From Bythopirellula goksoeyrii (GTDB lineage Bacteria; Planctomycetota; Planctomycetia; Pirellulales; Lacipirellulaceae): DNA of 64,000 bases. Location of the stretch: NCBI RefSeq assembly GCF_008065115.1, contig NZ_CP042913.1:5281257-5345256 (forward strand), in the 5' to 3' direction. Shown here in pieces: positions 3,789 to 49,298 of the stretch (position 1 is the stretch's first letter; the number at the start of each line of letters is the position of its first letter). Under the pieces are notes generated by a model. That model worked only from the letters and a program-made list of their open reading frames with translations. It was not told the DNA's origin and made no database searches. Position numbers and translations under genes: made by a program.

Positions 3789-4320
3789 GATAAAATCTCC
3801 GAACAGGAATGATAGAAAAAATTGATTACGATTTGCAGCCGTTAGAACTGGCGAGACTATCGCCAACAGCCTACGGCTACGATTCCTTGCGTTGGCACAC
3901 GCGTGGACTATTCACTGCCAGATCAAAAAAGAGATGAACGGAATAAATGAACGTAATAAATAAAGATCTGACTGGCGACAAATTACTAGTCCAGCTGGGA
4001 AATTAGAGCCAAACTGAAAACTTTGTTTTTGTGGCCAACTACTGCGCAACTCAAGCAGCAGAAAGTCTCATCTGCGACATGCACCAAAGAGAACGGGTGA
4101 ATTGATCATTAGTCGCAACTCTGGGCCACAAACCACTCAAGCCTGTGGTATTGCAAGAAACCAACTAGAGTGAATATTGACTCAGCCGCAAATAGGAGTG
4201 CACGGCAAGCACCTCATGGACCACCAACCATGAGGTCAGATGATCTCGATTGGATTGTAAAGACTTTGCAAAACATTCGCAAACTATTTATCGGAATTCT
4301 TGCGAGTTTCGTTGAGAAGC
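3789..4320. other. Gene-free stretch
   Basis: About 530 bases, AT-richer than its surroundings, between the 5' end of the peroxidase gene and the 3' end of the TauE gene. The part next to 3788 must hold the peroxidase promoter, but I cannot assign boxes with confidence. No credible gene or repeat is seen. Confidence 0.6.
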
Positions 4321-5136
4321 CTAGAAAAACGTGCGATATGCCATGTAACTGCTAATCACGACGAGCAGTGCAACGTAGATCCATTTGAGTACGCGATCCG
4401 GTGCTTTGGACGCCACTCTTGAACCGAGCGGGGCGAAGGTCATCACAAGCGGAGCAATCATGACGAACGCTAACAGGTTGATGTAGCCGAGTGAAAATTT
4501 CGCCAGCCCGGGTTCGCCCCATCCGTGAACTGCTGCTCCAATTGCGCCGCCCAAACCAATGACGAGCCCTGTTGCGGAGGCGATGGCGATGGATTTCTTG
4601 ATTGGGTAGTGAAATGCCCGAAGGTAGGGAACCGCAAACGTGCCCCCCCCAAGGCCGAGCCAAACGGACAACATGCCGATCACGAAGCCACCACCAGCCT
4701 TGGCAACAGTTGGCGGCTCTCCCTCGTCACCCGTTTCGGAGGCACCTTTGAGAGCCACATAGATGGCACTCGTGAACAAGTAGAGTGTGAAGAGGACCTT
4801 GAGATCGTGCGTGCGAAGCAGTTGAATCGTAAGCGTCCCGGCCACTGTTCCGAGCAGAATCCAAGGGATCCAGGTCTTAAGCATGTGAGCTTCGAGATTG
4901 CCAAGTTTATGTTGCGTCTTCGTGGCCATGATCGCCGCAGGGACGACGAGCGCCAGGCAAGTCCCCACTGCCGAGTGCATCACCACTTCTTGCCCCACAC
5001 CCATAAGTGGAAACAGTGAAAGAAAGGTAGGAACGAGGATGGCTCCCCCGCCGATCCCAAAAAGTCCCCCAGCAAACCCTGCCACCAACCCGGCTACTAC
5101 CAAGACTAGGAGGTGCACAATCATTTGTTCTGTCAC
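4321..5136 (-). CDS. Sulfite exporter TauE/SafE family permease
   Basis: A 271-residue polytopic membrane protein of the TauE/SafE (DUF81) family, whose members export small organic or sulfur anions such as sulfite or sulfoacetate. The N-terminal half has the family-typical GFAGGLFGIGGGAILVP (about residues 20-36), and the second half repeats the pattern with GMLSVWLGLGGGTFAVPYLR, consistent with two homologous halves of about four helices each. Length is typical. A nuclease gene transcribed in the same direction lies 39 bp upstream, but nothing suggests a shared function. The substrate cannot be predicted from sequence. Confidence 0.88.
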   Translation of the reverse strand: MTEQMIVHLLVLVVAGLVAGFAGGLFGIGGGAILVPTFLSLFPLMGVGQEVVMHSAVGTCLALVVPAAIMATKTQHKLGNLEAHMLKTWIPWILLGTVAGTLTIQLLRTHDLKVLFTLYLFTSAIYVALKGASETGDEGEPPTVAKAGGGFVIGMLSVWLGLGGGTFAVPYLRAFHYPIKKSIAIASATGLVIGLGGAIGAAVHGWGEPGLAKFSLGYINLLAFVMIAPLVMTFAPLGSRVASKAPDRVLKWIYVALLVVISSYMAYRTFF

Positions 5137-5175
5137 GACAGCCTCACTGACTACATTGAGTTACGCTTGCCTACT

Positions 5176-6060
5176 TCACTGAAACATCTCTAGGTTACTC
5201 CCCATCACGAATGCAGGGAATTCTTGCTCGCCGATGAGAAAACACGAATGGCCCAATGCGATCGATCGGGCAGGCGCAGAGAAGCGGCTATTCGTTATTA
5301 CCGCGGCACGATCGCAACCATAGTGTGCTTTGCCGGCAACGACTTGTTGAATGGCTTCTTTATCGACGCTGCCGACAAACCCTTTTGCTTGAACGGCGAT
5401 CATCATTTCGCCGAAGCGAACGAGGAGATCGACTCCTTCGTCACCTGTGGTACGTGCCATTTGGGCACTTGCCCCAAGGGCTTCAAATACCTTTACGAGG
5501 AATTCTTGCCATTCGGTACCCTGCATCGTCTTCCAGTTTTCTTTGAGAAGTTGCTCTCGTTCGATGCGGTTTGAGTCGGCCAGTTCGTTGATTGTGCTTT
5601 TGGTGGTTTCGATTCGCCGCCGACGATCCTCAGACTCGCCTTCCCACTGAATAAGGTCTTGTCGTAGTTGTGCCTTAATTGTTTGCTGCTCGGCGATGAG
5701 CTTCGCTAGAGTAGACGTAGCTGGAGAGATAATTGCTCTGGTCAAGAAGCCGAGCATGGCAACGGCGGCGAGGCTTGTGCCAATCGCAAGACTGGTCGCG
5801 GAGAGGCCTAAGAGAAACAACAAGACAAACGCAATGGCGGCACCGAGGAACGACCCTACGATTAGAACCCCTGGAAACCAGAGCGAGTACTCCTTCGCAG
5901 GAGCACGCAGGGCTTGAGCGAAACGGAGATAGAGAGCCCGCAGCTTCGCCTTTCGCAGCAATTTCCGCGCGACGCGAGAATGCTGTTCAGCCTCAGCGAG
6001 CTGCGACGAAAGCTGAACCACTTCTTGTTTCAAAGCTTCGATTTGAGCGAGGATGTTCAT
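5176..6060 (-). CDS. Membrane-anchored coiled-coil protein with Mrr-like restriction endonuclease domain
   Basis: From the ATG at 6060 the protein has 294 residues; a GTG 51 bases upstream is less likely. Residues 1-45 are a heptad-rich coiled coil, about 60-110 form two transmembrane helices, 115-175 are again helical and charged, and 180-285 are an Mrr_cat nuclease domain. The PD-(D/E)xK core is visible as GDEGVDLLV with Asp211 and IAVQAKGF with Gln224-x-Lys226, followed by QQVVAGKAHYGCD and AAVITNS. Mrr-type nucleases cleave methylated or foreign DNA; membrane-anchored versions are common and of unclear role. No methyltransferase or specificity gene is nearby, so this is not a classical restriction-modification system. 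Confidence 0.85.
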   Translation of the reverse strand: MNILAQIEALKQEVVQLSSQLAEAEQHSRVARKLLRKAKLRALYLRFAQALRAPAKEYSLWFPGVLIVGSFLGAAIAFVLLFLLGLSATSLAIGTSLAAVAMLGFLTRAIISPATSTLAKLIAEQQTIKAQLRQDLIQWEGESEDRRRRIETTKSTINELADSNRIEREQLLKENWKTMQGTEWQEFLVKVFEALGASAQMARTTGDEGVDLLVRFGEMMIAVQAKGFVGSVDKEAIQQVVAGKAHYGCDRAAVITNSRFSAPARSIALGHSCFLIGEQEFPAFVMGSNLEMFQ

Positions 6061-6223
6061 GAAAATCGATCTGACGGGAAGGTGGTCGCCACAAAAAGCA
6101 CAATAATGCACAAGAAGCGTTGGATACCGAAAAGTGCTTGTTACTTATCTTTTTCGCGACTTTTTGTGTTCTTCGTGGCTAATAAATCATGACAGCCAAA
6201 ATGGCTGCCCCACGGTCTGGCGA

Positions 6224-6760
6224 TCAATCCGACTCGACATGCGTATCTCGCAAAACCGCGAACAACTTGCAGTCATGCGGCTGGTCTTGAACAAACAAAC
6301 GTTCTCGTAAGGTGCCCTCGCAGACGCCGCCAATTCTTGTGGCCACGCGTTGGCTGGGTAGGTTTTCGACGTCGACGAAAATCTCGATACGATGGAGTGA
6401 TTGCTCACGAAATGCCCATTCGCAGATTTGTCTCGCAGCCTGCGTGGCAGTTCCTTGGCCCGTGGCGGAAGTCCGAACCCAGTACCCAAGTTCGCCGACT
6501 CGATGTTTCATTGCAATGCGGTGGATCCCACAGACCCCCAACAAGCGCTCGTTTTCGTCTTCGACCACAAAGCCCCACTCTTCATTGTTGTCCCAAGCAG
6601 CTGGGCGCCCTTCCACCCATGCCCTAACATCTTCGCAAGAGTACTCGTCGTGACACCATGCCAACCAGCGAGCAAGTTCTCTTTTTGATTCCTCGACGGC
6701 CTCCCAAATCGCATCGATGTCGGAGGGCTGATAGTGGCGTAGGGAAACGACTTTGCTCAT
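6224..6760 (-). CDS. GNAT N-acetyltransferase, RimJ/RimL type
   Basis: A 178-residue single-domain acetyltransferase. The acetyl-CoA-binding core is visible as LGYWVRTSATGQGTATQAAR (about residues 92-111), matching the RimL-like Q/RxxGxG/A loop, and HRIEIFVDVENLPSQRVATRIGG (about 122-144) is the following conserved beta-alpha unit with the Asn-x-x-Ser typical of these enzymes. The family acetylates ribosomal-protein N-termini, small amines or toxins; the substrate here is unknown. It lies 46 bp downstream of the toxin gene on the same strand but is not overlapping, so co-function is not implied. Confidence 0.88.
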   Translation of the reverse strand: MSKVVSLRHYQPSDIDAIWEAVEESKRELARWLAWCHDEYSCEDVRAWVEGRPAAWDNNEEWGFVVEDENERLLGVCGIHRIAMKHRVGELGYWVRTSATGQGTATQAARQICEWAFREQSLHRIEIFVDVENLPSQRVATRIGGVCEGTLRERLFVQDQPHDCKLFAVLRDTHVESD

Positions 6761-6805
6761 AGAAGATTCACTAGTGAGTTAATTGACGAGTGTCAGGAAG
6801 ACGAC

Positions 6806-7234
6806 TCACGCGGGCAAGTCGTCCCATGGATTGACTAGTGGAATGCCTGTATCGACGAAATGCTGGGTGTTACGTGTGGAGAGAGTGCCATGTCTCGCTT
6901 CAACTATCCCCGCGATCTGAACATCTCGTATTTCAACAGAGCGTCCAATAGAACGCAGCTTGGCCGAAATAATTGCCGCCTCAAAAGCCGCAGTCGCATC
7001 GAAGTCTAAGACACGACCCTCCAGGTCCTGCTCCAATACCTTCTCAAATGCATCCTCCAATGCTCGACGCCGCTTGCCCTTTGCCATAGTTTGGAGGCCA
7101 AACATGATCTCGAATACACAAATGCTTGAAGTCCATATGGATTCGGAAGGTTGTGCATTGAGCCAGTTGACAACTCGCTCATCCGGTGTGGATCGCATCA
7201 ATGCCGAGATTACATTGGTATCCAGAACAATCAT
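6806..7234 (-). CDS. PIN-domain ribonuclease toxin, FitB/VapC type
   Basis: A 142-residue PIN-domain protein beginning MIVLDTNVISALMRSTPDE, the FitB-like N-terminus with the first catalytic Asp (Asp5). Glu43 in SSICVFEIMFGL is the second acidic residue, and RDVQIAGIVEARHGTLSTRN (about 103-122) supplies the third acidic position and the C-terminal Thr-Arg-Asn typical of FitB. Such toxins are Mg-dependent RNases that cut tRNA or other RNAs when released from their antitoxin. The start overlaps the antitoxin stop by 4 bases, so translation is coupled. All expected catalytic residues appear intact. Confidence 0.92.
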   Translation of the reverse strand: MIVLDTNVISALMRSTPDERVVNWLNAQPSESIWTSSICVFEIMFGLQTMAKGKRRRALEDAFEKVLEQDLEGRVLDFDATAAFEAAIISAKLRSIGRSVEIRDVQIAGIVEARHGTLSTRNTQHFVDTGIPLVNPWDDLPA

Positions 7235-8058: not shown

Positions 8059-8970
8059 GTGACAAAATCTGCGTTTCTATTTCCTGGCCAAGGCGCCCAG
8101 TCGGTTGGCATGGGTGCAGCGCTGGCCGATTCACTGTCCAAGGCTCGGGAACTCTTCGATCGCGCTGCGGATATCCTGGGCTACGACCTCTTGGACCTTT
8201 GCACCTCGGGTCCTGCTGAGAAACTCAATTCCACGGTTCATAGTCAGCCTGCACTGTTCGTCTGCAGCCTGGCAGCTTTGGAAAAATTGAAACAAGACTC
8301 GCCAGATGTCGTCGAAAGTTGTGCGGCAACGGCTGGCTTGAGCTTGGGTGAATACACAGCATTGGTCTTTGCGGGGGCGATGAAGTTTGATGCGGCCTTG
8401 CGCGTTGTGCAAGTGCGAGGTCAGGCGATGCAAGATGCCGCGGATGCTGTCCAGAGCGGTATGGTCAGTGTGCTGGGGCTCGAGCGCGGAAAAGTCGAAG
8501 AACTAGTGATACAAGCGAGAGAGGAAGACGTCTTGCAGTTGGCAAACTTCCTCTGCCCGGGCAACATTGTCGTTTCTGGCGGCAAGGCGGCCTGTGAGCG
8601 GATAGCACCCCTCGCCGAGACCGCTGGGGCAATGAAAGTGATACCTCTCACGGTAGCTGGTGCGTTTCACACTCCACTTATGCAGCCAGCGGTGGAACGA
8701 TTGAAGGCGGCTCTGGCGGATGTGGAGATCGTCGCTCCCCGAATCCCTGTGGTTTCCAATGTTGATGCCCGCCCTCACGACGACCCGGCAGAAATCCGCA
8801 GCTTGCTCGAGAGACAGGTGGTTGAACCTGTGCTGTGGGAAGATACCATGCAATGGCTCATCGGCGAGTTCGGCATCGAGAGCTGCTACGAAATCGGCCC
8901 CGGGCGCGTGTTGCGAGGATTGCTAAAACGAATCTCACGCAAGTTGCCGTGTGAGAATATTGAAGCGTAA
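8059..8970 (+). CDS. fabD: Malonyl-CoA:ACP transacylase
   Basis: FabD moves malonyl groups from CoA to acyl carrier protein, feeding chain elongation. The 303-residue protein starts at GTG 8059 and has the N-terminal LFPGQGAQSVGMG, the nucleophile Ser95 in GLSLGEYTALV, and the partner His204 in GAFHTPLM. The C-terminal CYEIGPGRVLRGLLKR is also family-typical. The length is normal. It is the second gene of an rpmF-fabD-fabG-acpP-fabF run on the same strand; the 66-bp gap after rpmF suggests co-transcription. Confidence 0.96.
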   Translation: MTKSAFLFPGQGAQSVGMGAALADSLSKARELFDRAADILGYDLLDLCTSGPAEKLNSTVHSQPALFVCSLAALEKLKQDSPDVVESCAATAGLSLGEYTALVFAGAMKFDAALRVVQVRGQAMQDAADAVQSGMVSVLGLERGKVEELVIQAREEDVLQLANFLCPGNIVVSGGKAACERIAPLAETAGAMKVIPLTVAGAFHTPLMQPAVERLKAALADVEIVAPRIPVVSNVDARPHDDPAEIRSLLERQVVEPVLWEDTMQWLIGEFGIESCYEIGPGRVLRGLLKRISRKLPCENIEA

Positions 8971-8980
8971 GAAGAAGTCA

Positions 8981-9124
8981 TGTCATCCCGATGGGAACTC
9001 CGCGACCAGAGGGATCTGGCATACAGCACTAACACGTATGGTAGGTGAGCGAAGGGGCGAACTAGATTCCTCAGTCGCCTAGGCTCATTCGGAATGACAG
9101 ATACGCGACTCCTTCGGGATGACA
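8981..9124. repeat. Dispersed-type inverted repeat between fabD and fabG
   Basis: Outer arms TGTCATCCCG (8981-8990) and CGGGATGACA (9115-9124) are perfect inverses, with imperfect extension inward to GCG/CGC. Inside are GGGATCTGGCATAC and CTAGATTCCTC, elements typical of interspersed palindromes found in many bacterial genomes. It fills nearly the whole 176-bp gap and would form a long hairpin in the fab transcript. Confidence 0.65.
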
Positions 9125-9146
9125 AGAAAGAAACGAGTAACAAATT

Positions 9147-9938
9147 ATGAGTGAATCAAACGATCGTAGAATTCAAGTCGATCTCTCTGGCCAGTCGGCC
9201 ATCGTCACAGGTGCCTCACGCGGTATTGGCAAAGCGATTGCCATCACGCTGGGTGCCGCCGGTGCGAAGGTTGCTTGCGTAGCTCGCAGTGAAGACAAAC
9301 TTGCCGAGACGGCTAAAGCGATTACCGACGCGGGGGGAACTGCCGCCGTCTATGCCTGCGATGTGGCCGACTCGGCAGCTGTACAGAAAGTGGTCGACGC
9401 AGTCGTCGCCGAGTGGGGCCAGCTCGACATTATGGTCAACAACGCCGGTATCACCCGCGACACCTTGATCCCGCGGATGAGCGACGAGGAATGGGACGAC
9501 GTGATTGCCACGAATCTGCGGAGCGTATTCCTGTTCACACGTGGGGCAGCAGGCGCAATGATGCGATCCAAGTCTGGCCGGATCATCAATATCTCCAGCA
9601 CCTCAGGTATTATGGGCAACCCTGCACAAAGCAACTACTCCGCGTCGAAAGCGGGCGTGATCGGCTTCACGCAGACCGTGGCCCGCGAACTTGCCAGCAA
9701 GCGTCGGAAAATCACCGTGAATGCGATTTGCCCCGGCTTTATCGCTACCGATATGACAGCTGCCCTGATGGAAGCTGCGGGAGAAGAGGCGGTCATGGAG
9801 CGAATCAAGGCGGCTGTACCTCTGCAGCGACAGGGGGAAGCCGAGGAAGTTGCCGACGCGGTGCTCTTCCTTGCTAGTTCGTCAGCCGCCTACATAACGG
9901 GCCAGACCCTGGTGGTCGATGGAGGCCTAACTGCTTAG
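9147..9938 (+). CDS. fabG: 3-oxoacyl-ACP reductase
   Basis: FabG is the NADPH-dependent short-chain reductase that performs the first reduction of each fatty-acid elongation cycle. The 263-residue sequence has the cofactor loop TGASRGIG (21-28), NNAG (98-101) and the catalytic Ser151, Tyr164 and Lys168 (NYSASKAG). The C-terminal QTLVVDGGLTA is typical. A short N-terminal extension (MSESNDRRIQVDLSGQ) precedes the Rossmann fold. Its position between fabD and acpP supports fatty-acid synthesis over other SDR roles. Confidence 0.95.
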   Translation: MSESNDRRIQVDLSGQSAIVTGASRGIGKAIAITLGAAGAKVACVARSEDKLAETAKAITDAGGTAAVYACDVADSAAVQKVVDAVVAEWGQLDIMVNNAGITRDTLIPRMSDEEWDDVIATNLRSVFLFTRGAAGAMMRSKSGRIINISSTSGIMGNPAQSNYSASKAGVIGFTQTVARELASKRRKITVNAICPGFIATDMTAALMEAAGEEAVMERIKAAVPLQRQGEAEEVADAVLFLASSSAAYITGQTLVVDGGLTA

Positions 9939-10052
9939 CCTGTCAGAGGTTGCCGCCGCTGGAATCGTCCAGAGCGACCTAGACAACCACCTGGAGAAAC
10001 GGTATATCTTGACCAACTTCGCAGGGACGGTCTATTGTGAACCTGCGACGAT

Positions 10053-10112
10053 AGTAGCACGACTCTCCGAGTCGTATGTTTCTTGAATGGCGACTCGGAG
10101 ATTTGTGCTACT
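10053..10112. repeat. Inverted repeat upstream of acpP
   Basis: Arms at 10053-10074 and 10091-10112 are reverse complements apart from about three mismatches, sharing AGTAGCAC and CTCCGAGTCG, around a 16-base loop. This is another member of the CGACTC/GAGTCG palindrome type seen at 56658 and 58514. It sits in the 287-bp fabG-acpP gap. Confidence 0.65.
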
Positions 10113-10225
10113 CTAGGCAAAACTACATAGTTGTTGTCGCATGAACAGAACGTGAGCAAATGCTTCACCACGGTTCTTGCGACACATGGGCATATTTTTT
10201 ACAGAGACAATGGAGGACCATTCAA

Positions 10226-10459
10226 GTGGCCTCAGTACTGGAACGTGTGACAGACATCGTGGCGGAGCAACTCGGAGTTGATAAAGACAAGATCACTCCC
10301 GAAACCTCTTTTGTGAACGACTTAGGTGCCGATTCGCTCGACACGGTTGAATTGGTCATGGAGTTGGAAGAAGAGTTCGACGTCAACATTCCTGACGACG
10401 CTGCCGAAAAGATTCAAACCGTCGGACAGGCGGTTGAGTTTATTGAGCAGAATAAATAG
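10226..10459 (+). CDS. acpP: Acyl carrier protein
   Basis: ACP carries growing acyl chains on a 4'-phosphopantetheine arm. I take the GTG at 10226 as the start because GGAGG (10212-10216) lies 9 nt upstream and the resulting 77-residue protein has the normal ACP length; an upstream in-frame start would add 22 unrelated residues. The prosthetic group attaches to Ser37 in [19 protein letters not shown]. The protein is strongly acidic, as expected. It lies between fabG and fabF in the usual order. Confidence 0.96.
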
Positions 10460-10462
10460 ATA

Positions 10463-10487
10463 GGGAGCCTTTTGGGCGGCTTCTTTT
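10463..10487 (+). terminator. Possible weak rho-independent terminator after acpP
   Basis: GGGAGCC TTTTGGGC GGCTTC followed by TTTT just after the acpP stop can form a short stem with one bulge and a U tract. It may attenuate read-through to fabF and explain the 150-bp gap. The stem is short. Confidence 0.3.
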
Positions 10488-10611
10488 AGCGGAATTGCTC
10501 GGATGGAAATAGCAACTCGTTTTTTCCTGCGCTGAGTTTTTCAGTGGTGGCAGTTCGATTGGTCTTCTTTGAATCCATTTTTCTCGACATCTCAGCGGCC
10601 GGACAAGAGAC

Positions 10612-11847
10612 ATGAATCGACGTGTAGTCGTAACAGGGATGGGCGTCGTTACGTCGCTCTCTTGCAAGGTTGACGATTTCTGGAGCAAGATTCTCGATAG
10701 CCAGAGTGGCATCCACGCTCTTACTCACTTCGATGTGACCGACTACAAGGTCAAGTTTGGTGGTGATATCTCGGATTGGTCGGTCGACGGCTACATCGAT
10801 TCCAAAGAGGAAAAACGGCTCGACCGATTTACCCAGTTCGCCATGGTGGCTGCCGTCGATGCGGTGAAAGACGCAGGCATCGACTTCGCTAAGTACGACC
10901 CGTTCCGTTTAGGGGCAATCGTCGGTTCAGGAATCGGTGGACTCAACGAAATCGAAGAACAGGAAGCCCGCCTGATCAAGAAGGGGCCGGACAAGGTCTC
11001 CGTTTTCACGATCCCCAAACTCATGCTCAACGCCGCCAGCGGGCATATCTCGATCCGCTTTGGACTGCGCGGCCCAAACCATGCCGTTGCTACGGCTTGT
11101 GCCAGCGCCACCAATGCCATGGGAGATGCGTTCAAAGCGATCCGCTACGGCGAAGCCGAGGTGATGGTCACCGGCGGTGCCGAAGCTGCGGTCTCACCAA
11201 TGGGGCTCGCCGGGTTTTCCAACATGAAGGCCCTCTCCATGCGGAACGACGACCCCCAAGCAGCCAGCCGCCCTTTCGACGCCGACCGCGATGGCTTTGT
11301 CCTCGCCGAGGGAGCCGGAATCCTGGTCTTCGAAGAGCTGGAATTTGCCAAGGCGCGCGGAGCCAATATCTATGGCGAGGTCCTCGGTTTCGGTGCCAGC
11401 GCCGATGCGGGACACATCACCCAGCCTGATGCTGAAGGAACTGGCGCCGCCCGGGCCATGAGCAATGCCCTGGAGTTTGCAGGCATCGACCCCACGGAAG
11501 TCGACTACATCAGTGCCCACGGCACCAGCACGCCGTTGGGCGACAAGGCCGAAACAATCGCCATCAAGCGGGTCTTCGAGGATCACGCTTACAAACTAAA
11601 CGTCTCCAGCACCAAGAGCCAATTGGGCCACACCCTCGGAGCCAGCGGCGGCGTGGAGATGGTGGCATGCCTGTTGGCGCTGCGCGACCAGATCGCCCCG
11701 CCAACAATCAATCTCGACACGCCCGACCCAGCCTGCGATCTCAACTACACCCCCAACACCCCCCAAGAACGCCCCATCCGCCGCGCGATGAACAACAGCT
11801 TCGGGTTTGGTGGGCATAATGCTTCGATTTTGGTGGGGAAGCTGTAG
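10612..11847 (+). CDS. fabF: 3-oxoacyl-ACP synthase II
   Basis: FabF condenses malonyl-ACP with acyl-ACP in fatty-acid elongation. The 411-residue sequence has the complete catalytic triad at canonical positions: Cys163 (ATACASATNA), His303 (SAHGTSTPLGD) and His340 (KSQLGHTLGAS). The N-terminal RRVVVTGMGVVTSL and the C-terminal NNSFGFGGHNASILV are family-typical. It closes the fab cluster. It is the active counterpart of the degenerate homologue at 43310. Confidence 0.97.
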   Translation: MNRRVVVTGMGVVTSLSCKVDDFWSKILDSQSGIHALTHFDVTDYKVKFGGDISDWSVDGYIDSKEEKRLDRFTQFAMVAAVDAVKDAGIDFAKYDPFRLGAIVGSGIGGLNEIEEQEARLIKKGPDKVSVFTIPKLMLNAASGHISIRFGLRGPNHAVATACASATNAMGDAFKAIRYGEAEVMVTGGAEAAVSPMGLAGFSNMKALSMRNDDPQAASRPFDADRDGFVLAEGAGILVFEELEFAKARGANIYGEVLGFGASADAGHITQPDAEGTGAARAMSNALEFAGIDPTEVDYISAHGTSTPLGDKAETIAIKRVFEDHAYKLNVSSTKSQLGHTLGASGGVEMVACLLALRDQIAPPTINLDTPDPACDLNYTPNTPQERPIRRAMNNSFGFGGHNASILVGKL

Positions 11848-38118: not shown

Positions 38119-41100
38119 ATGGCAAATAGATCGCGTCGTAAGCTGACCTCACGTCTGAAGAGTCGATCCGCGCGCTTTGAGACTCTTGAATCGCGTAACA
38201 TGCTCGCAGCCCAACCGATCTTGTCCGAGTTTCTGGCAAGTAATGATTCGTCGCTGAACGATGGATACGGCCAAGACAATGATTGGATCGAGATCTACAA
38301 CGCTGGCGATGCAGCCGTCGATCTCCAGGGTTATTACCTCACAGATAATGCAGACAACTCTACCAAGTGGGAATTCACTGCTGAAACTATTCTTGGCTCG
38401 AGGGAGTATCTCGTTGTGTTTGCATCCGACCTGGATACGGTCGATCCTGCAGGTTATTGGCACACCAACTTCAAGCTCAGTGCGGGAGGAGAATACCTTG
38501 GGCTGGCCGACCCCAACGGCACCATCATCAGCGACCTCGGAATAAGTCTTTCAGGTGGAGAATACCCTCCTCAAGTAACCGATATCTCCTATGGATTGGC
38601 AGGGCCGGTTTCCCAATCGTTGCTCGCAGGAAACTATGGTCTGACCTATTTGGTTCCCACGAGTAATACTCTAGGCACCAGTTGGACGATGGTCGGATTC
38701 AATGCAACTTCGAACGGGTTTTCCAATGGAATCAATGGCGTTGGCTATGAACTCGCCGCGAGCAATGATTACGATCCTTACCTCAACACACATCTGATCA
38801 ATTCCGATTCAGACCCTAAACCCACGACCGTATATATCCGCAATGAATTCAACGTTAATTCGGCAACCGATATCGAAGAATTGGTACTTTCACTTCGTTA
38901 TGACGATGGTTTTGCGGTCTACCTGAACGGCACCTACTTGTTCGGAGAGAATGAACCGGCGACTCCGTTAGCCTATGATTCGATTGCAGTAGGAAGTCGA
39001 GCCGACAGCGAAGTTATTGAACCAGTCGCTTTTTCACTGAACAATTACCTCGACCTGTTGCAAAATGGCACGAACGTGCTTGCTATTCACGCGTTGAACA
39101 ATTCCAACAGCAGCGACATGCTTATCACCGCCGAACTCACGGCTAAGGAAAGTAGTGTCGCAGAGGGCTCCATAGGCTACCTGACTCCTACACCGGGCTC
39201 ATCGAATTCTCAAACGATCGATTTGGGACCAATTATCGATGATGTTGAATTCACTCCCACAAGTGGCACAGGAAACGACAATATCATCGTCACTGCTTCC
39301 ATATCCCAGTCGGTCCATCCGGTAAATCTCGCTTCCCCCAAGTTCTATTACCGGATTGGGTTTGGCACCGAAGTGCAGGCAGCGTTCACGGACGATGGCC
39401 AAGGAAGTGACTTGCAGGCGGGTGACGGGGTTTATACAAGTCAGATTCCTGCTTCATCATTTTCCGAAGGCGACATGGTCCGCTGGTATATCACCGCCAG
39501 TGATACCCATGGAACAGAAACCCGCGCACCTCGCTTTAATGACCCCCTCGATTCGGCCGAATTTTTTGGAACCGTGATCCTCGATCCTACGGCCTCGACA
39601 GACATACCGGTACTGTACTGGTTTTTAGAAGACGAAGCAGCAGCGGAAACACGTGCCGGGACTCGCGCGTCCTTGTTCTTTGGTGGAGAGTTCTACGACA
39701 ATATACAAGTTGACTTGCATGGGCAGTCGACAGCTGCTCCCGAGTTCCTGAAGCACTCTTTTGATTTCGACGCCAACTCAGGCGAGAAATTCGACATTGG
39801 TGATGACACCGGAAGGCATAGTGATTTCAACTTGCTCACCAACTATGCCGACCAGTCGAAGCTTCGTAACACACTGGCTTATGCTTCCTTTGCTGAAGCT
39901 GGTGGAGCCACCCATCTAGCCCAACCAGTATCAGTTCATCGCAATGGGCAGTTTTACGCCTTGTACGACCTCGTTGAAGAAGGTGACTCCGAATACCTAG
40001 AGAGATTAGGTCTCGATCCCCACGGAGCACTCTACAAAGTGAATAACGGGCTTACAAGTGCCTTGAATGAAGTCGACAAGATTACTCGCAACTATGAAAA
40101 CCGCAGCGACTTTCAGGACGTATTAGACGCCAACTCACTTTCCGGTACGCAAGCTCGAACATGGTACTATGACAATTTAGATATTGCCGACATCGTCAAC
40201 TATCTTGCTGTCCAAAATGTGATGGCGAACAGCGATTATGGCCACAAGAACATGTATTGGTATCGAGATTCGAACAATACAGAGCTCTGGCAAATCTTAC
40301 CTTGGGACGTCGATCTCAGCTTTGGACACCGATGGGGAAATGCCAATCCACCATATTTCAATAACACCCTATTCACCAATATAGCACTGGATTTCAATTT
40401 TTCCGAGCAAGCCAACATTGTCCGGAACTTTGTCAACAACGATCTCGATCCTCGACTCACCGAGATGTATTTGCGTCGGGTTCTCAGTGTCTCTGATCAG
40501 TTATTAGGATCGACAGGCACTTCGGCTGCGTCGAGTTGGGCCTACCAACAGCTTGAACATTGGGACACTCTCACTGCCGATGAAGCGATCAATGACATGA
40601 ACGAGTGGGGCATCCATCCAAACTACACCCACACACCAGCCCAAGCCGTCGATCAAATCCAGAACGACTTTATCGTTTCTCGCCGAAATCTTATCAATAG
40701 TTCTGTCGGGTCGCAAAGTAACGTGCAGGACATTTCGATTGGAGCGATCGAGTATGCCCCCGGTTCAGGGAACCAGGACGAAGAGTACATCGTCCTTACC
40801 AACAACAACCAAACCTATGCCACAGACCTTTCTGACTGGACGATCACAGGTGCGATCGAACATACTTTCAAACCTGGCACGGTGATTCCTGCCGGCGAAT
40901 CTTTGTATCTAGTGGCAGACGTGCAAGGCTTCCAGGCCCGCAGTACGGGACCAAGGGGTGGTCAACAGCTCTTTACCCAGGGCAATTACACGGGAAGATT
41001 GGCCAACGGTGGCGGTGCTTTGGTACTTGCTAATTCGGCGGGGGCTCAAATCGACTCAGCCAGCTACATTGGCACGACCAACAACGGTGACTTTGATGGA

Positions 41101-41559
41101 GACGGCGACATTGATGGACGTGACTTCCTCGCTTGGCAACGCGGCTATGGAATCCAAAGCGGAGCCACACCAGCGGACGGCGATGCCGACGAAGACGGCA
41201 AAGTCGACAACCTCGACTTAGATCTCTGGGCAACGAACTACGGCACAACGCCTCTCTTAGCCACGGTCCAAACTTATAGCGGCATTTCTGAAAGCGTTGA
41301 TCTTTCGGCTAGCGAACTTGCTTCCCTAGCCGCCTGGAATGTATCTCAGATGGACAATAACATGACAGATCCCATTGCCATCGAGGTAGCGTTGGAATCA
41401 CTAGCAATCAGGCGAGAACCAATTCCTGCAAATCAACTTTTTCTGTCAACGAGTAGCACATCCGCACCTACCCACGAAGCACAATCTTCTAATAGCAGTG
41501 AAGATTCCTCTCTCTCCGCAGAATTGGTGGAATCCGCCTGGGATGATCTATTTGGCTAG
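38119..41559 (+). CDS. Secreted lamin-tail / CotH-kinase-like / dockerin protein
   Basis: A 1146-residue surface protein. The basic N-terminus with FETLESRNMLAA is the planctomycete-type extracellular export signature. A lamin-tail-like domain (about 30-140) reads WIEIYNAGDAAVDLQGYYLT. Residues about 500-830 match the CotH kinase family: EFLKHSFDFDANSGEKFDIG, NLLTNYADQSKLRNTLAY, VSVHRNGQFYALYDLVEEGD and LWQILPWDVDLSFGHRW. A second lamin-tail-like segment follows (about 870-970, YIVLTNNNQTYATDLSDWTI). A dockerin type I pair closes it: NGDFDGDGDIDGRDFLAWQ and DADEDGKVDNLDLDLWATN, with Asp-rich calcium loops. CotH proteins phosphorylate secreted proteins in Bacillus. Confidence 0.88.
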   Translation: MANRSRRKLTSRLKSRSARFETLESRNMLAAQPILSEFLASNDSSLNDGYGQDNDWIEIYNAGDAAVDLQGYYLTDNADNSTKWEFTAETILGSREYLVVFASDLDTVDPAGYWHTNFKLSAGGEYLGLADPNGTIISDLGISLSGGEYPPQVTDISYGLAGPVSQSLLAGNYGLTYLVPTSNTLGTSWTMVGFNATSNGFSNGINGVGYELAASNDYDPYLNTHLINSDSDPKPTTVYIRNEFNVNSATDIEELVLSLRYDDGFAVYLNGTYLFGENEPATPLAYDSIAVGSRADSEVIEPVAFSLNNYLDLLQNGTNVLAIHALNNSNSSDMLITAELTAKESSVAEGSIGYLTPTPGSSNSQTIDLGPIIDDVEFTPTSGTGNDNIIVTASISQSVHPVNLASPKFYYRIGFGTEVQAAFTDDGQGSDLQAGDGVYTSQIPASSFSEGDMVRWYITASDTHGTETRAPRFNDPLDSAEFFGTVILDPTASTDIPVLYWFLEDEAAAETRAGTRASLFFGGEFYDNIQVDLHGQSTAAPEFLKHSFDFDANSGEKFDIGDDTGRHSDFNLLTNYADQSKLRNTLAYASFAEAGGATHLAQPVSVHRNGQFYALYDLVEEGDSEYLERLGLDPHGALYKVNNGLTSALNEVDKITRNYENRSDFQDVLDANSLSGTQARTWYYDNLDIADIVNYLAVQNVMANSDYGHKNMYWYRDSNNTELWQILPWDVDLSFGHRWGNANPPYFNNTLFTNIALDFNFSEQANIVRNFVNNDLDPRLTEMYLRRVLSVSDQLLGSTGTSAASSWAYQQLEHWDTLTADEAINDMNEWGIHPNYTHTPAQAVDQIQNDFIVSRRNLINSSVGSQSNVQDISIGAIEYAPGSGNQDEEYIVLTNNNQTYATDLSDWTITGAIEHTFKPGTVIPAGESLYLVADVQGFQARSTGPRGGQQLFTQGNYTGRLANGGGALVLANSAGAQIDSASYIGTTNNGDFDGDGDIDGRDFLAWQRGYGIQSGATPADGDADEDGKVDNLDLDLWATNYGTTPLLATVQTYSGISESVDLSASELASLAAWNVSQMDNNMTDPIAIEVALESLAIRREPIPANQLFLSTSSTSAPTHEAQSSNSSEDSSLSAELVESAWDDLFG

Positions 41560-43309: not shown

Positions 43310-44623
43310 ATGAATTCCTCTGACTCACCACGTCGCGTTGTTATCACCGGTCTGGGACTGATCTCGCCACTGGGAAATACCGTCGACCAGATGCAGGGAT
43401 CCCTTGCAAGCGGTCGCAGTGGCGTCGAACCACTCACGCTCTTGCCCCCCATCGAGGACCTTGTCACATTTGCGGGCGAATGCCGCGAATTTACTGGGGA
43501 CATCGACAACTTTGGTCCGCTGGAAAAGGATGTCAAGAAAGCGATCCGCAAGGCCCTCAAAGTCATGTGCCGTGAAACGATGATGGCCATCGCCTCGGCA
43601 CAGCAGGCGCTGGCCGATGCAAAGGTTTCTGATGTCGAACCTGAGCGGAGCGGCGTCTTGTTTGGTAGCGACTACATGCTGAGCCCGCCGGATGATTTTG
43701 TCGATGGCATGGTCAAGTGCGGTGCCCGAGAAGGAGAATTCCGCTATTCCGATTGGGGCAGCATGGGGTTGGAGCAAATGAGCCCGCTCTGGATGCTTAA
43801 GTTTCTGCCGAATATGCCGGGAAGCCACATTGCAATCATCAATGATCTGCGTGGGCCAAACAACTCCCTCACGATGCGCGAGACTTCGAGCCTGATGGCC
43901 GTGCGCGAAGCGGTGCATACGATCCAGCGCGGCCACGCCGATCTCATGCTTGCTGGGGCAACGGGTACACGAGTTCACTCTTTCAAAACGATCCACGCCA
44001 TCCAGACTGAGCAACTGGCAAACAGCGAGTGTCCACCAGCCGAGGCCTCTCGCCCCTTCGATGCGAAGCGGAGCGGGATGGTGGTCGGCGAAGGTGCTGG
44101 GTCGATTGTGTTGGAAGAACTCGAGTCCGCTCGACAGCGTGGTGCCACGATTTACGGCGAGGTCCTCGGGACGGGCAGCAGTATCGTGACGGACACCCAC
44201 TTGAAAGGCAACCGCTCCCAAGCTCTCGCCAACGCCATGCGCTCGGCGTTCGAATCGGCCAATCTCACGGCCGACCAATGTGGGCACATCAACGCCCATG
44301 GCTTAGCGACCACCGCAGCTGATGCCGAAGAAGCTACCGCCATCGGCGAGGTTTTCGGCAAGGCAGCAGAATCTGTCCCTGTCGTAGCAGCCAAGAGCTA
44401 CTTCGGCAATCTGGGGGCTGGCAGTGGCATGGTGGAACTGATCGCCAGCACACTTGCCCTCACGAGCGGCAGACTGTTTGCCACACTCAACTATACCAAC
44501 CCCGATCCGGCCTGCCCGCTAAATTTATCGGCAGACGGTGATCGCCCCGCGGGGAGCAGTTTCTTAAAGCTCAGCGTTACCCCGCAGGCACAAGCCGCGG
44601 CAGTGCTAATAGCGCGGGTGTAG
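43310..44623 (+). CDS. Beta-ketoacyl-synthase homologue lacking the Cys-His-His triad
   Basis: A 437-residue thiolase-fold protein with FabF-like ends (RRVVITGLGLISPLGNTVD, IHAIQTEQLAN, SRPFDAKRSGMVVGEGAGSI). The active-site Cys is replaced by Glu191 (GPNNSLTMRETSSLMAV against GPNHAVATACASATNA in the fabF product), the first His is kept (His330 in INAHGLATTAAD), and the second His is replaced by Asn367 (KSYFGNLGAGSG). It therefore cannot condense normally. Such proteins pair with an active ketosynthase as a chain-length factor (which usually has Gln), or act as decarboxylases. The fab cluster is 32 kb away, and no PKS partner is adjacent. Confidence 0.85.
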   Translation: MNSSDSPRRVVITGLGLISPLGNTVDQMQGSLASGRSGVEPLTLLPPIEDLVTFAGECREFTGDIDNFGPLEKDVKKAIRKALKVMCRETMMAIASAQQALADAKVSDVEPERSGVLFGSDYMLSPPDDFVDGMVKCGAREGEFRYSDWGSMGLEQMSPLWMLKFLPNMPGSHIAIINDLRGPNNSLTMRETSSLMAVREAVHTIQRGHADLMLAGATGTRVHSFKTIHAIQTEQLANSECPPAEASRPFDAKRSGMVVGEGAGSIVLEELESARQRGATIYGEVLGTGSSIVTDTHLKGNRSQALANAMRSAFESANLTADQCGHINAHGLATTAADAEEATAIGEVFGKAAESVPVVAAKSYFGNLGAGSGMVELIASTLALTSGRLFATLNYTNPDPACPLNLSADGDRPAGSSFLKLSVTPQAQAAAVLIARV

Positions 44624-44943: not shown

Positions 44944-46359
44944 ATGAATGCTGGCGAAGTACTGAGAATTGTCGATGCGATCCATCGAGACAAAAACATT
45001 GAGAAAAATATTGTCTTCGAGGGGATCGAGGCCGCACTCGTATCGGCAGCGAAAAAATATTACGGAGAAGAAGCGGATGTCATAGTGCAAATCGACCGCG
45101 AAAGCGGTGCGATCTCTGCGACTTGCGATGGCGAACCCCTCGATTCTGAGGAAACTGTTGGCCGAATTGGGGCCCAAACTGCCAAGCAGGTGATGATCCA
45201 GAAGATCCGCGAAGCCGAACGGGATGCCCTCTTCGATGAGTACAGCGATCTGATTGGCGAGATGGTCAGCGGAGTTGTGCAGCGTTATGAAGGGGGTGCC
45301 GCAACCGTCACGCTCACGAACGTCGAGGCGATCCTCCCCCGTAGCGAACAGATTCCCGGCGAAACCCACCATGTGAACGAACGTGTGCGGGCCACCGTCT
45401 TTGAGGTTCGCAAGAGTGGCAGCCGCATCAAAGTGATTCTCAGTCGCGCTCGGCCCCATTTGGTGCAACGGTTGTTCGAACAAGAAATTCCCGAGATTAT
45501 CGACAGTGTGATTGAGATTCGTGCGATCTCACGTGAACCGGGCTATCGTTCAAAAGTTGCCGTGTCGAGCAGCGACCAGCGGGTCGATTGCGTCGGAGCC
45601 TGTGTCGGCGTGCGAGGCAACCGCATCAAGAACATTGTCGATGAACTGGGTGGAGAACGCATCGACATCGTCCGCTGGGACGACAACCTCGAAGTGCTGA
45701 TCCCCAACGCCCTTCAGCCAGCGGAAGTCGAGCAGGTGATTCTCTGCCGCATGTTAGGCCGGGCGATTGTCTTGGTCCGTGAAGACCAATTGTCGCTGGC
45801 GATTGGTCGCCGAGGTCAGAATGTACGCTTGGCAAGCAAGCTCTCGGGCTGGGACATTGAAATCATGACTCAAGATGAGCTGGCTGAGTCCATTGACCGT
45901 GCCGTCCAGGGATACAGTTCCATCGAGGGGGTCACACAAGAGTTGGCCGAACGTTTGGTGGAAGAGGGCTTCTTGAGCTACGACGACCTTTCGATCATCG
46001 AACCCGATGCCTTGATGGAAATGGGGGGAATGACCGAAGAACAAGTCGACGTGATTGTCGAACAAGCCGAAGCACGGGCTGAAGAAGCCGAAGCAGCGGC
46101 AGCGGCAGCGAGACGGCAAAAACGTGAAGAAGACCGCATCGCAGCAGCAACCGCTATGGAAGAAGAAGCCGAAGCAGCTCGCAAAGAAGAGGAAGCCAAG
46201 GCTGAAACTGAGGCCACGGAGGAGTCGGAGCCCGTCTCGGTAGAGTCTGGCTCGATAGAACCTGCCGGGGAAGAAAGTGACGCCGACATTGAGGAGGCAG
46301 CTCCCGTCGAGAATGCCTCAAACGACGAATCTCCCGAACCCGCAAAAGGTCCGGAGTAG
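44944..46359 (+). CDS. nusA: Transcription termination/antitermination factor NusA
   Basis: NusA binds RNA polymerase and nascent RNA and modulates pausing, termination and antitermination. The 471-residue protein has the N-terminal polymerase-binding domain (1-105), an S1 domain (about 106-170, [17 protein letters not shown]), KH1 with GVRG at about 222-225 and KH2 with IGRRGQN (about 284-290). A helix-hairpin-helix-like region ([17 protein letters not shown]) follows. The C-terminus is a low-complexity acidic/Ala stretch (about 360-471), longer than in most NusA. rimP, usually immediately upstream, is absent. The infB gene follows 170 bp downstream. Confidence 0.96.
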
Positions 46360-46532
46360 TTTTATTTCCCTGATGGTCTGAATGACTACCCATAGTCAGC
46401 GGCCTGATGGAAGTCACGGTATGAGGAGGAAAATACTCATGGTTTCCTAAGTTTTTTTACATTAACCGCGAGCGTTGAAAAAATGCAATCACAGAAACTG
46501 CAACCCACTGAGCTCGCACGGAGAAATTGATT

Positions 46533-49298
46533 TTGGCGGTCCGCATTTATTCATTAGCGAAGGAATTGAAATTAGACAGCAAGGAGCTCGTCGATGTTTG
46601 CGCACGACTAGGCATCCGAGGAAAAGGCTCCGCGCTGGCTAGCCTGTCAGACGAGGAAGTCTCCAAACTTAAGGAGCACTTCCAAGGCTCTGGCACCCCG
46701 TCTGCACCGCAAGGGACTCCAACAGCACCCGCACCTGAACGGCCCAAGGAACCGGTGCGTGAAGGCAAAATGCCTGTTCTCAATACTCCCCGACCAGCAT
46801 CCCCTTTGGCGGGCTTGCGCAAAAAACGTGAAGAGGCAGCGGCCTCGGTGGAAGAGCCCTCCGCCACCTCCAACGAACCTCACGCTGAACCTGCCGCAGC
46901 GCCGATGGAGATGTCCGAAGAAGGCCATGGGCCACTGGCCAACGTGATGCGGCGAGACGACTACATTGGTCCCGGGAATGTCGGAGGGAAGCTTCCCACG
47001 ATTGCTCCTGGCGGAAAAGACAAAGAACGGAGCCGTGATTCGAAGCAAACGGGATCCACTCCCCAACGCGGCCGACCTGCCATCAAACTTGCTCCAATAC
47101 CAATCACTGAGAAGCCTCCCAGTAGTGCGACCAAGAAGGATGAGGCGATTCAGAAGCCAGACCTTCGGCTGCCGGCCGAAGCCCTGCGGCCTGGAAAAAC
47201 AAGTGGAAAGCCCCTATCGGCTCACTTGAAGCGGCATGAAGATACCTTGGATGCCAAGAAACGCGGCAAAGACAAGGAAATGCTCATTCCTGGTGAAGAA
47301 ATACCTGCTTCCGGCAAGGGTCGTCGAGGCAAGGCCAAGGGTGGTGCAGACAAAGATGATGCTCCCATGCTCGGAGGACGTGAGCAACGTCAACTCAGTC
47401 GGCAACGTCATACTTTGAGGGATCGCGAAGGAAGCGACGAGTATCGACCCCGCCGCTCTTTGCGCCGGCCACGCCGCACCGGCGTGAGTACCGCGGCCCC
47501 TCGTAAGGACAAAGTCTCCTTGCAACTACCTTGCACCGTGCGTGAATTCTCAGAAGCAGCCGGTGTTCCCGCCAGTCAAGTTTTGCGAATCCTCATGGAA
47601 GAAGGAGTCATGGCTACGATGAACGCCTTGATCGACGACGATTTGACGGAGTTGATCGCCGCCGAACTCGGAGTCAATCTCGAATTGAAAGAAGCGGTCA
47701 GCGTCGAAGACGAATTGCTGGCCAGTATTCGCGACCGACAAGACGACGAAGCCGATCTGGTTTCGCGCCCACCGGTCATTACCTTCCTGGGCCACGTCGA
47801 CCACGGCAAGACCTCACTGCTGGACCGCATTATCGATATTGATGTGGTCAGCGGAGAAAGTGGTGGCATCACGCAACACATTCGGGCCTACACAATCGAA
47901 AAAGACGGCCGACGAATTTCGTTCGTCGATACTCCAGGCCATGAAGCATTTACGGAAATGCGTGCTCGTGGAGCCAATGTGACCGATATCGCCGTATTAG
48001 TCGTTGCAGCGGACGATGGTGTGATGCCTCAGACAGAGGAGGCTATCAGCCACGCCCAAGCAGCTGAGGTGCCGATTGTCGTCGCCCTAAACAAGACGGA
48101 TCTTCCTGGGGTGGACCTCAACCGCGCCATGCAGGGCCTTTCTACGAATGGCTTGCTCCCCAGTGAATGGGGCGGAGATGTGGAAGTAGTTAAGACTAGC
48201 GCGATTACTGGAGATGGACTCGACGAACTCCTAGACACGGTACTCACGGTTGCCGAACTGCACGAATACAAAGCCAATCCAAATCGCCAAGCGATGGGCA
48301 CATGCCTTGAAGCCCAACAGGAACCTGGTCGGGGTGTCGTCGCAAAAATTATTGTTCAGAATGGCACTCTTAGGGTGGGCGATGTCATCGTCTGTGGGCA
48401 ATCCTACGGTCGCGTCAAAGCCATGTACGATACCTTGCTACCCAATCAACGCTATGAAGAGGCGGGGCCCAGCACGCCGGTGAACGTCACTGGATTCGAC
48501 ACGGCTCCTGGTGCCGGCGAGCATTTTTATGTTCTCGACGATATTGCCGATGCGCGTACCATCGCCGAATCACGTTCCGATTCGCATCGTAAGACCGCCT
48601 TGAGCGGAGGGGTTCAACACGTCACCCTCGAAACCCTGTTTGATCGCCTCGAAGGAGCTAACGAAGTCCAAACGCTCAATATCATACTGCGGGCAGACGT
48701 CCGCGGGTCGATCGAAGCGATTCAGAAAGAACTCGGCAAACTGGATCATCCGGAAGTAAAAATCAAATTGCTTCAAGCCTCCGTGGGAGGGGTCACTGAA
48801 GCCGACGTCACTCTGGCCGATGCCTCCGATGCGATTATTATCGGTTTCAATGTGATCGCGGACGAAAACGCTCGGGCTTTGGCCGAACAACGTGGTGTTC
48901 AGGTTCGACGGTACGAAATCATTTATAAAATCACCGAAGATATCAAGGCAGCCCTTGAGGGTCTTCTCAAACCGGAAGAACGGGAAGTTGACCTGGGCCG
49001 GGCTTTAGTTCAGCAGACCTACAAGATCAGCCGCGTCGGCACGATTGCAGGTTGCCGTGTTTTGTCAGGCTCAATTGCCCGCAATGGGCGAGCGCGAATC
49101 ATCCGCGACAATACCATCATCGGCGACTACCCCATCGATACGCTCAAACGTGAGAAGTCCGATGCGAAAGAAGTGCGTGAGGGCTTGGAATGTGGCATTA
49201 AGTTGTCAGGTTTCAACGACGTCAAGGAAGGCGATCTCTTCGAAGTCTATAAGGTCGAAGAAGTGGGCCGTACCTTCGAGGAGTCGTTAGAATCGTAG
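46533..49298 (+). CDS. infB: Translation initiation factor IF-2
   Basis: IF-2 is the GTPase that places initiator tRNA on the ribosome. I prefer TTG 46533 because a GGAG lies 9 bases upstream and gives an N-terminus [20 protein letters not shown], typical for IF-2; a TTG at 46527 would be too close. The 921-residue protein has a basic, Pro/Ala/Lys-rich N-terminal region (about 55-310), then the IF2_N module ([20 protein letters not shown]). The GTPase G1 is GHVDHGKT at 420-427, G3 DTPGHEAF, G4 NKTD. Domains II to IV follow. It is co-transcribed with nusA and rbfA. Confidence 0.97.

Follow-up and report, generated by a model that had tools for sequence, protein, structure and literature searches.

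The gene at 43310–44623 (+ strand) of the window, a 64,000-nucleotide stretch of Bythopirellula goksoeyrii contig NZ_CP042913.1, encodes an acidic ketosynthase-fold protein of 437 amino acids, here called KS-A. We read KS-A, with a probability of about 0.6, as a chain-length-factor-like, non-condensing ketosynthase subunit with an evolutionary origin separate from that of the polyketide chain-length factors in our sample. This reading draws on sequence, conservation, fold prediction, gene pairing and phylogeny, from which we infer the heterodimer, the role in the pocket, the partner, the product and the order of events.

In the history that we propose, a ketosynthase gene belonging to a second planctomycete gene set, of type II fatty-acid type, would have been duplicated in tandem; one copy, KS^C, would have retained Cys-His-His and the other would have lost its Cys, mostly to Glu or Asp. 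The acidic copy, with its fold and ACP-facing surface retained, would dimerise with a Cys-ketosynthase and form part of the acyl pocket, setting which chains or lengths are made, and condensation would be done by the Cys subunit. In the class to which B. goksoeyrii belongs, a further duplication would then have split the acidic gene into A and B, and it would have left the neighbourhood of KS^C.

Active site and fold of KS-A

Residue positions were taken from an alignment in which KS-A was set against several ketosynthases, among them the FabF of the window and both FabF and FabB of E. coli. The position of the catalytic Cys is occupied by Glu191 (codon 43880–43882, + strand, as for all codons here). 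The first catalytic His (His330, 44297–44299) and the catalytic Lys (Lys362, 44393–44395) are retained, and the second catalytic His is replaced by Asn367 (44408–44410). SVTPQAQ (residues 422–428; 44573–44593) stands in place of the GFGG loop, and segment-length comparison showed that the GS...GPN segment (residues 119–180; 43664–43849), which we take to adjoin the dimer interface and the acyl pocket, is 62 residues long, 14 longer than in FabF. Because the Cys, the second His and the GFGG loop are all lost, condensation by KS-A alone is not expected.

Pfam matched the KAS I/II N- and C-terminal domains alone (PF00109 and PF02801), with no KAS III (FabH) domains. The NCBIfam fabF model TIGR03150 scored 263.5 bits, under its curated cut-off of 493.75, and neither NCBIfam nor Pfam offered a finer family. 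FabF enzymes were the best sequence matches in the PDB; 9s5h, an entry with two different ketosynthase chains, was also among the matches in our searches. An AlphaFold2 monomer model built on a 45-row alignment (pLDDT 91.5, pTM 0.90) had FabF structures as its nearest folds in Foldseek (best TM 0.87 by query length), and the first four rows of the VIA-align comparison with FabF structures gave Z scores of 58.7–59.1 and an rmsd of 1.7–1.9 over ~400 residues.

By its domains and by the likeness of its model to FabF, KS-A has the thiolase-type KAS fold. It shares this fold (Z about 59), the Lys and the first His with FabF (KAS II), but lacks the nucleophilic Cys, second catalytic His, GFGG loop and above-cut-off NCBIfam score of that family. 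The combination of a ketosynthase fold and a missing nucleophile Cys is that of a chain-length factor; a KSQ decarboxylase has Gln at the Cys place and both His retained, where KS-A has Glu191 and Asn367. The first-pass annotation of a ketosynthase homologue with Glu-His-Asn was thus borne out by the alignment and the intact 437-aa ORF; it missed the loss of the GFGG loop.

The residue observation is not new, as the Glu/His/Lys/Asn pattern of a Rhodopirellula baltica protein has been in print since 2009. The available part of Rattray et al. 2009 (PMC2649909) gives Glu163, His298, Leu300, Asp302, Lys328 and Asn333 for NP_866153 (RB4527) and Asp163 for NP_865682 (RB3714). RB4527, a FabF paralogue, has the same active-site residues as KS-A, and from residues and lineage we infer that the two are orthologous. 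In that part of the paper the R. baltica paralogues come up incidentally, in work on ladderanes, and are suggested to differ in substrate and function; pairing with a Cys-ketosynthase does not appear there. The open-access literature searched held no other relevant account of Glu replacing Cys in ketosynthases, and none of pairing, single origin or a chain-length-factor reading for planctomycete fatty acid genes.

Conservation and origin of the acidic clade

Matches to KS-A at E <= 1e-60 were present in 39 of 39 genomes searched, its own included. The nearest orthologue, at 81%, is from Bythopirellula polymerisocia (L008/L057), in the same Pirellulales genus as the window's organism. Against the L008 sequence, dN/dS was 0.07, a rough value as dS is about 1.7, and roughly points to purifying selection. 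In the 38 own-order orthologues read (one partial; genome G011, where the orthologue is a fragment, was left out), Glu occupies the Cys place in 38/38 and Asn the second His place in 36/38, with one His and one Ser.

The same pattern extended across a wider sample. In a FastTree phylogeny of 283 distinct ketosynthases, all 184 Glu/Asp-bearing sequences fell in one clade of 187 (support 0.978), in which the Cys place holds Glu (163), Asp (21), Gly (2) or Ser (1). The KS-A clade within this sample (n = 147) has Glu in 139, Asp in 6 and Gly in 2; the Gly-bearing pair, its sole non-acidic members, are related KS-A proteins at L218 4426–5787 and L221 3981–5342. The own-order group, defined as the 116 KS-A clade sequences with locus numbers below L153, has Glu in 116, Lys in 115, Asn in 113 and His in 107. 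With Glu or Asp in 184/187 clade members and Glu in every own-order sequence, the loss of Cys is not recent. The first-pass annotation had proposed a phylogeny with planctomycete homologues and a check of Glu and Asn conservation; the acidic ketosynthases form one clade with both FastTree and IQ-TREE, and the two residues are conserved at the frequencies just given. A lineage-specific mutation or misalignment is out, as the acidic residue is clade-wide and was reproduced by a fresh alignment, and so is pseudogene decay, given intact ORFs and the low dN/dS.

To place the clade among other ketosynthases, we used an IQ-TREE phylogeny built from 424 columns of 104 sequences under LG+F+G4, with E. 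coli FabB as the root. In it the acidic clade plus its Cys sister group is sister to the KS^C clade (88 sequences in all, support 93), with FabF apart. The Cys sister group comprises the first genes of four loci of family f32 (L187–L190) and one gene at L204. All four f32 loci read FabZ-ACP-FabZ-KS-KS with Cys in both KS genes, of which one falls in each group of the tree; the pair is therefore probably older than the loss of Cys, as far as these sequences tell. Relatives with Cys and His at these positions, which the first-pass annotation would have taken as evidence against itself, thus do exist (L187–L190 and L204) but look ancestral. The L204 gene (4064–5470) is an unpaired Cys-type gene of an f20 genome, G266, that also has an acidic/Cys pair (L177), so the two states do not divide neatly along lineages.

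At L203 (family f78), two further paralogues, whose Cys place is taken by Ala in one and Phe in the other, branch outside the acidic and KS^C clades, which suggests separate losses of Cys. The L203 region (2170–6807) holds three ketosynthase genes, whose nucleophile positions read Phe, Ala and Cys, and FabZ-like, ACP, FabG and FabD genes. One Streptomyces chain-length factor and one Apilactobacillus Cys-less ketosynthase fell outside the 88-sequence planctomycete clade (support 93), a weak test of separate origin given this thin sample. The GS...GPN segment has a median length of 62 in the 147 KS-A clade sequences and 63 in 18 KS^C sequences, and of 48 in FabF (52/52); the similar length in the KS-A clade and KS^C may reflect common descent and does not prove pairing. 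That KS-A arose by duplication of the neighbouring fabF is rejected, because in the tree it groups with the ketosynthases of the second set, which it also matches in the length of this segment.

Gene neighbourhoods and the Cys-less/Cys pair

In its own genome KS-A lies next to nusA (44944–46359), which is followed by infB (46527–49298). The cluster fabD (8059–8970), fabG (9147–9938), acpP (10214–10453; PP-binding, PF00550) and fabF (10612–11847; normal Cys-His-Lys-His), all on the + strand at 8059–11847, is ~31 kb away, so that KS-A here is separated from a neighbourhood that relatives keep together. The large protein encoded upstream of KS-A (38119–41559) contains CotH kinase and lamin-tail domains and matches dockerin weakly. 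The order that recurs in the named loci is fabD-fabG-(acpP)-fabF-(one gene)-KS-A-nusA-infB, where acpP was identified by a profile match in the window and by visual reading in L044.

Neighbourhoods were counted in the best 80 of 582 loci. A same-strand fabF lay within 6 kb upstream in 33 and was absent from an upstream flank of at least 4 kb in another 33, 14 flanks being too short; the figure is thus 33/66 testable loci. Downstream, nusA lay within 5 kb in 44/70 usable flanks and was absent from a flank of at least 4 kb in 26/70 (10 too short). Family f19, of the same class, has fabF just upstream at L153, L154, L158, L160, L162, L163, L165 and L166, and also at L208, L210, L215, L216, L218, L221, L223 and L224. 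The statement in the first-pass annotation that the gene is far from the fab genes therefore describes its own genome and not half of the testable relatives. Many relatives have KS-A beside fabF, so that FabF may be its present partner; KS^C, the neighbour of the deep forms, is the other candidate.

The deep loci, by which we mean planctomycete loci outside the own order and family f19 (n = 54; 16 + 38), have a different neighbour. In the first 16, a same-strand ketosynthase is next after the Cys-less gene in 16/16; 15 partners are Cys-His-Lys-His and one, at L192, ends before its Cys. The Cys-less genes themselves carry Glu (10), Asp (5) or Asn (1) at the Cys place. A second search of the phylum, with a profile of the deep Cys-less genes, matched 281/294 genomes at 1e-85, and many best scores, near 1e-90 to 1e-115, were taken for general FabF-type matches. 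It yielded 40 further loci, picked by score and not by neighbours, of which 38 were readable.

In these 38 proteins two alignments agree on Glu in 36 and Gln in 2 at the Cys place. Only 6 of the proteins retain the first His and 15 the Lys, and nine different residues, including Asn, His, Leu, Glu and Asp, occupy the second His place. A Cys-His-Lys-His ketosynthase is next after the Cys-less gene in 35/38. Across all deep loci, a ketosynthase is next on the same strand in 51/54, with Cys-His-Lys-His read in 50 and no partner ketosynthase detected at L301, L302 and L310 (3/54); the gap between the aligned regions of the pair is under 150 bases in 37/51. Adjacency to a Cys-ketosynthase thus runs from 51/54 deep loci, through the fabF counts of the named loci, to none in the own genome. 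The first-pass annotation, which described the gene as without PKS partners, overlooked this pairing, and its suggestion of a structural partner is the option favoured by the evidence as a whole. The two Gln-bearing proteins, L294 4680–5975 and L308 4854–6164, have pairs that are otherwise typical and the residue seen in polyketide chain-length factors; the claim of Glu and not Gln holds for nearly all relatives and fails for these.

FabZ-ACP-FabZ genes were detected beside the deep pair in only 12/54 loci (L177, L183, L185, L191–L194, L198, L201 and L313–L315) and beside none of the remaining deep pairs at the cut-off used; the cluster is not universal, and that it is ancestral can only be supposed. 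The rhizobial cluster acpXL-fabZXL-fabF2XL-fabF1XL likewise combines a dedicated ACP and a FabZ with two ketosynthase genes in tandem, a likeness of gene content alone to a system for very-long-chain fatty acids, as the available part of the source describes it (PMC11901934). At L177 (278–3113) and L185 (7284–9999), a GH3-family gene and an alpha/beta hydrolase gene lie 3' of the ketosynthase pair, a hint as to the product; the L177 GH3-family gene weakly matches the lyso-ornithine lipid synthetase OlsH (100 bits vs a cut-off of 620).

The own genome (6.47 Mb, one contig, C1) encodes another four ketosynthases of FabF type, and one long type I frame in it matches KS twice. A second fatty-acid-type set, FabZ1-ACP2-FabZ2-KS^C, at L038 5487–8563 (C1:~6323.5–6326.6 kb), encodes a PP-binding protein (ACP2, 128 aa long) along with two FabA-like proteins (PF07977), and no acidic ketosynthase; its KS^C (C1:6323573) is about 1 Mb from KS-A. 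The second Cys-less ketosynthase, KS-B (L037 4496–7221; C1:~993.5–996.2 kb), has Asp at the Cys place and is divergent from an adjoining fatty acid desaturase gene (PF00487); a desaturase of this kind is beside KS-B also at L049, L052, L054 and L180. An open frame of ~3700 aa with two ketosynthase matches lies at L040 (C1:2884000–2900000), with another FabF-type KS (L005) and a FabH-like gene ~100 kb from it.

Partner subunit or enzyme

Heterodimers of this logic are described in the available parts of several papers. KS/CLF complexes are obligate heterodimers in which an 'inactive' KS, with an active one, shapes the tunnel (PMC12664062), ApeO-ApeC is a precedent with the same logic (PMC8358021), and a catalogue of type II PKS KS-CLF pairs includes Planctomycetes among its 14 phyla (PMC10132072). 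AmcF-AmcG of cispentacin biosynthesis, a heterodimer on co-expression, likewise joins a Cys-ketosynthase to a partner without functional motifs (AmcG being compared by description), but serves one elongation and a cyclisation in a specialised pathway (PMC10698177). The KS-A group resembles type II polyketide chain-length factors (KS-beta) in its KS fold, its replaced Cys and, in deep relatives, its Cys-ketosynthase neighbour. It differs in having Glu/Asp and not Gln in nearly all members, in gene order (Cys-less then Cys, against KS then CLF in one Streptomyces cluster) and in falling in a separate clade.

Besides the loss of the condensing residues, the 51/54 deep pairings, the tree with its Cys/Cys f32 pairs, the fabF neighbour in 33/66 testable named loci, the purifying selection and the precedents, three further lines speak for KS-A as a partner subunit. 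In deep lineages the acidic residue outlasts the first His, the Lys and the second His; all 35 partners read in the second search are Cys-His-Lys-His; and by analogy the constant deep features, Glu (rarely Asp, Gln or Asn) with an adjoining Cys-ketosynthase, resemble those of chain-length factors. Against it stand the distances in the own genome from both fabF and KS^C, the testable named loci with no fabF upstream, the three deep loci with no detected partner, the low share of deep pairs with FabZ-ACP-FabZ genes beside them (12/54), and the failure of the two sampled sequences of chain-length-factor type to group with this clade. His330, Lys362 and Asn367 are, moreover, near-invariant in the own order, which would seem beyond the need of a purely structural subunit. 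This extra constraint, possibly reflecting catalysis, is why we hold our confidence in the partner reading at its present level.

KS-A may instead catalyse another reaction, for example cyclisation, hydrolysis or transfer on acyl-ACP at a Glu-His-Lys-Asn site. The available part of Rattray et al. 2009 proposes that aberrant FabF paralogues in anammox bacteria may recruit non-FASII groups (PMC2649909), and AmcG has been proposed, in the part available, as a cyclisation factor (PMC10698177). The four near-invariant positions of the own-order group fit this alternative, but the deep paired members have lost most of the residues of the site; we consider it improbable.

Slightly less probable again is a malonyl-ACP decarboxylase, the catalytic role named as one option in the first-pass annotation, in which Glu191 would replace the Gln of KSQ, and His330, Lys362 and Asn367 would bind and decarboxylate malonyl-ACP to give an acetyl-ACP starter. 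The retention of these residues in the own-order group, the Gln in 2/38 deep relatives and the closeness to fab genes in many relatives fit it. Yet the second His and the GFGG loop are lost, FabF cannot decarboxylate malonyl groups unless it has both His, according to the available part of Rattray et al. 2009 (PMC2649909), and the Glu and the gene pair persist in deep lineages that are mostly without the first His and the Lys. There is also no initiation gap for such an enzyme to fill, which makes it less likely: FabH was matched in 37/37 relatives, and 34 of these matches pass the curated cut-off, among them that of the own genome, a separate FabH at C1:5802546. A MadB-family (YiiD_C) gene was matched in 22/37, own included. 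The least probable alternative, a homodimer without catalysis that binds or senses acyl-ACP to regulate fatty acid synthesis and is perhaps tied to the nusA-infB position, would suit the frequent nusA neighbour and the distance of the own KS-A from any ketosynthase partner, but nusA is missing from 26 of the 70 usable flanks among the best 80 of 582 loci and deep relatives adjoin another ketosynthase.

The partner reading has an extension that we put forward tentatively and think unlikely as it stands, namely that some planctomycetes carry out their primary fatty acid elongation with a heterodimer of FabF and the acidic KS-A. The chain-length-factor principle is known from polyketide-type systems. 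That extension would place it in core membrane lipid synthesis, independent of polyketide chain-length factors, with a Cys/Cys intermediate living in the sister lineage.

If the partner reading is true, the split of a ketosynthase into catalytic and shaping subunits arose outside polyketide systems. A ketosynthase pair of this kind would be spread through several planctomycete families. The Cys/Cys state before, the Cys/Glu state after and the rarer Gln form would all be present in living lineages, and the origin of chain-length factors would become testable.
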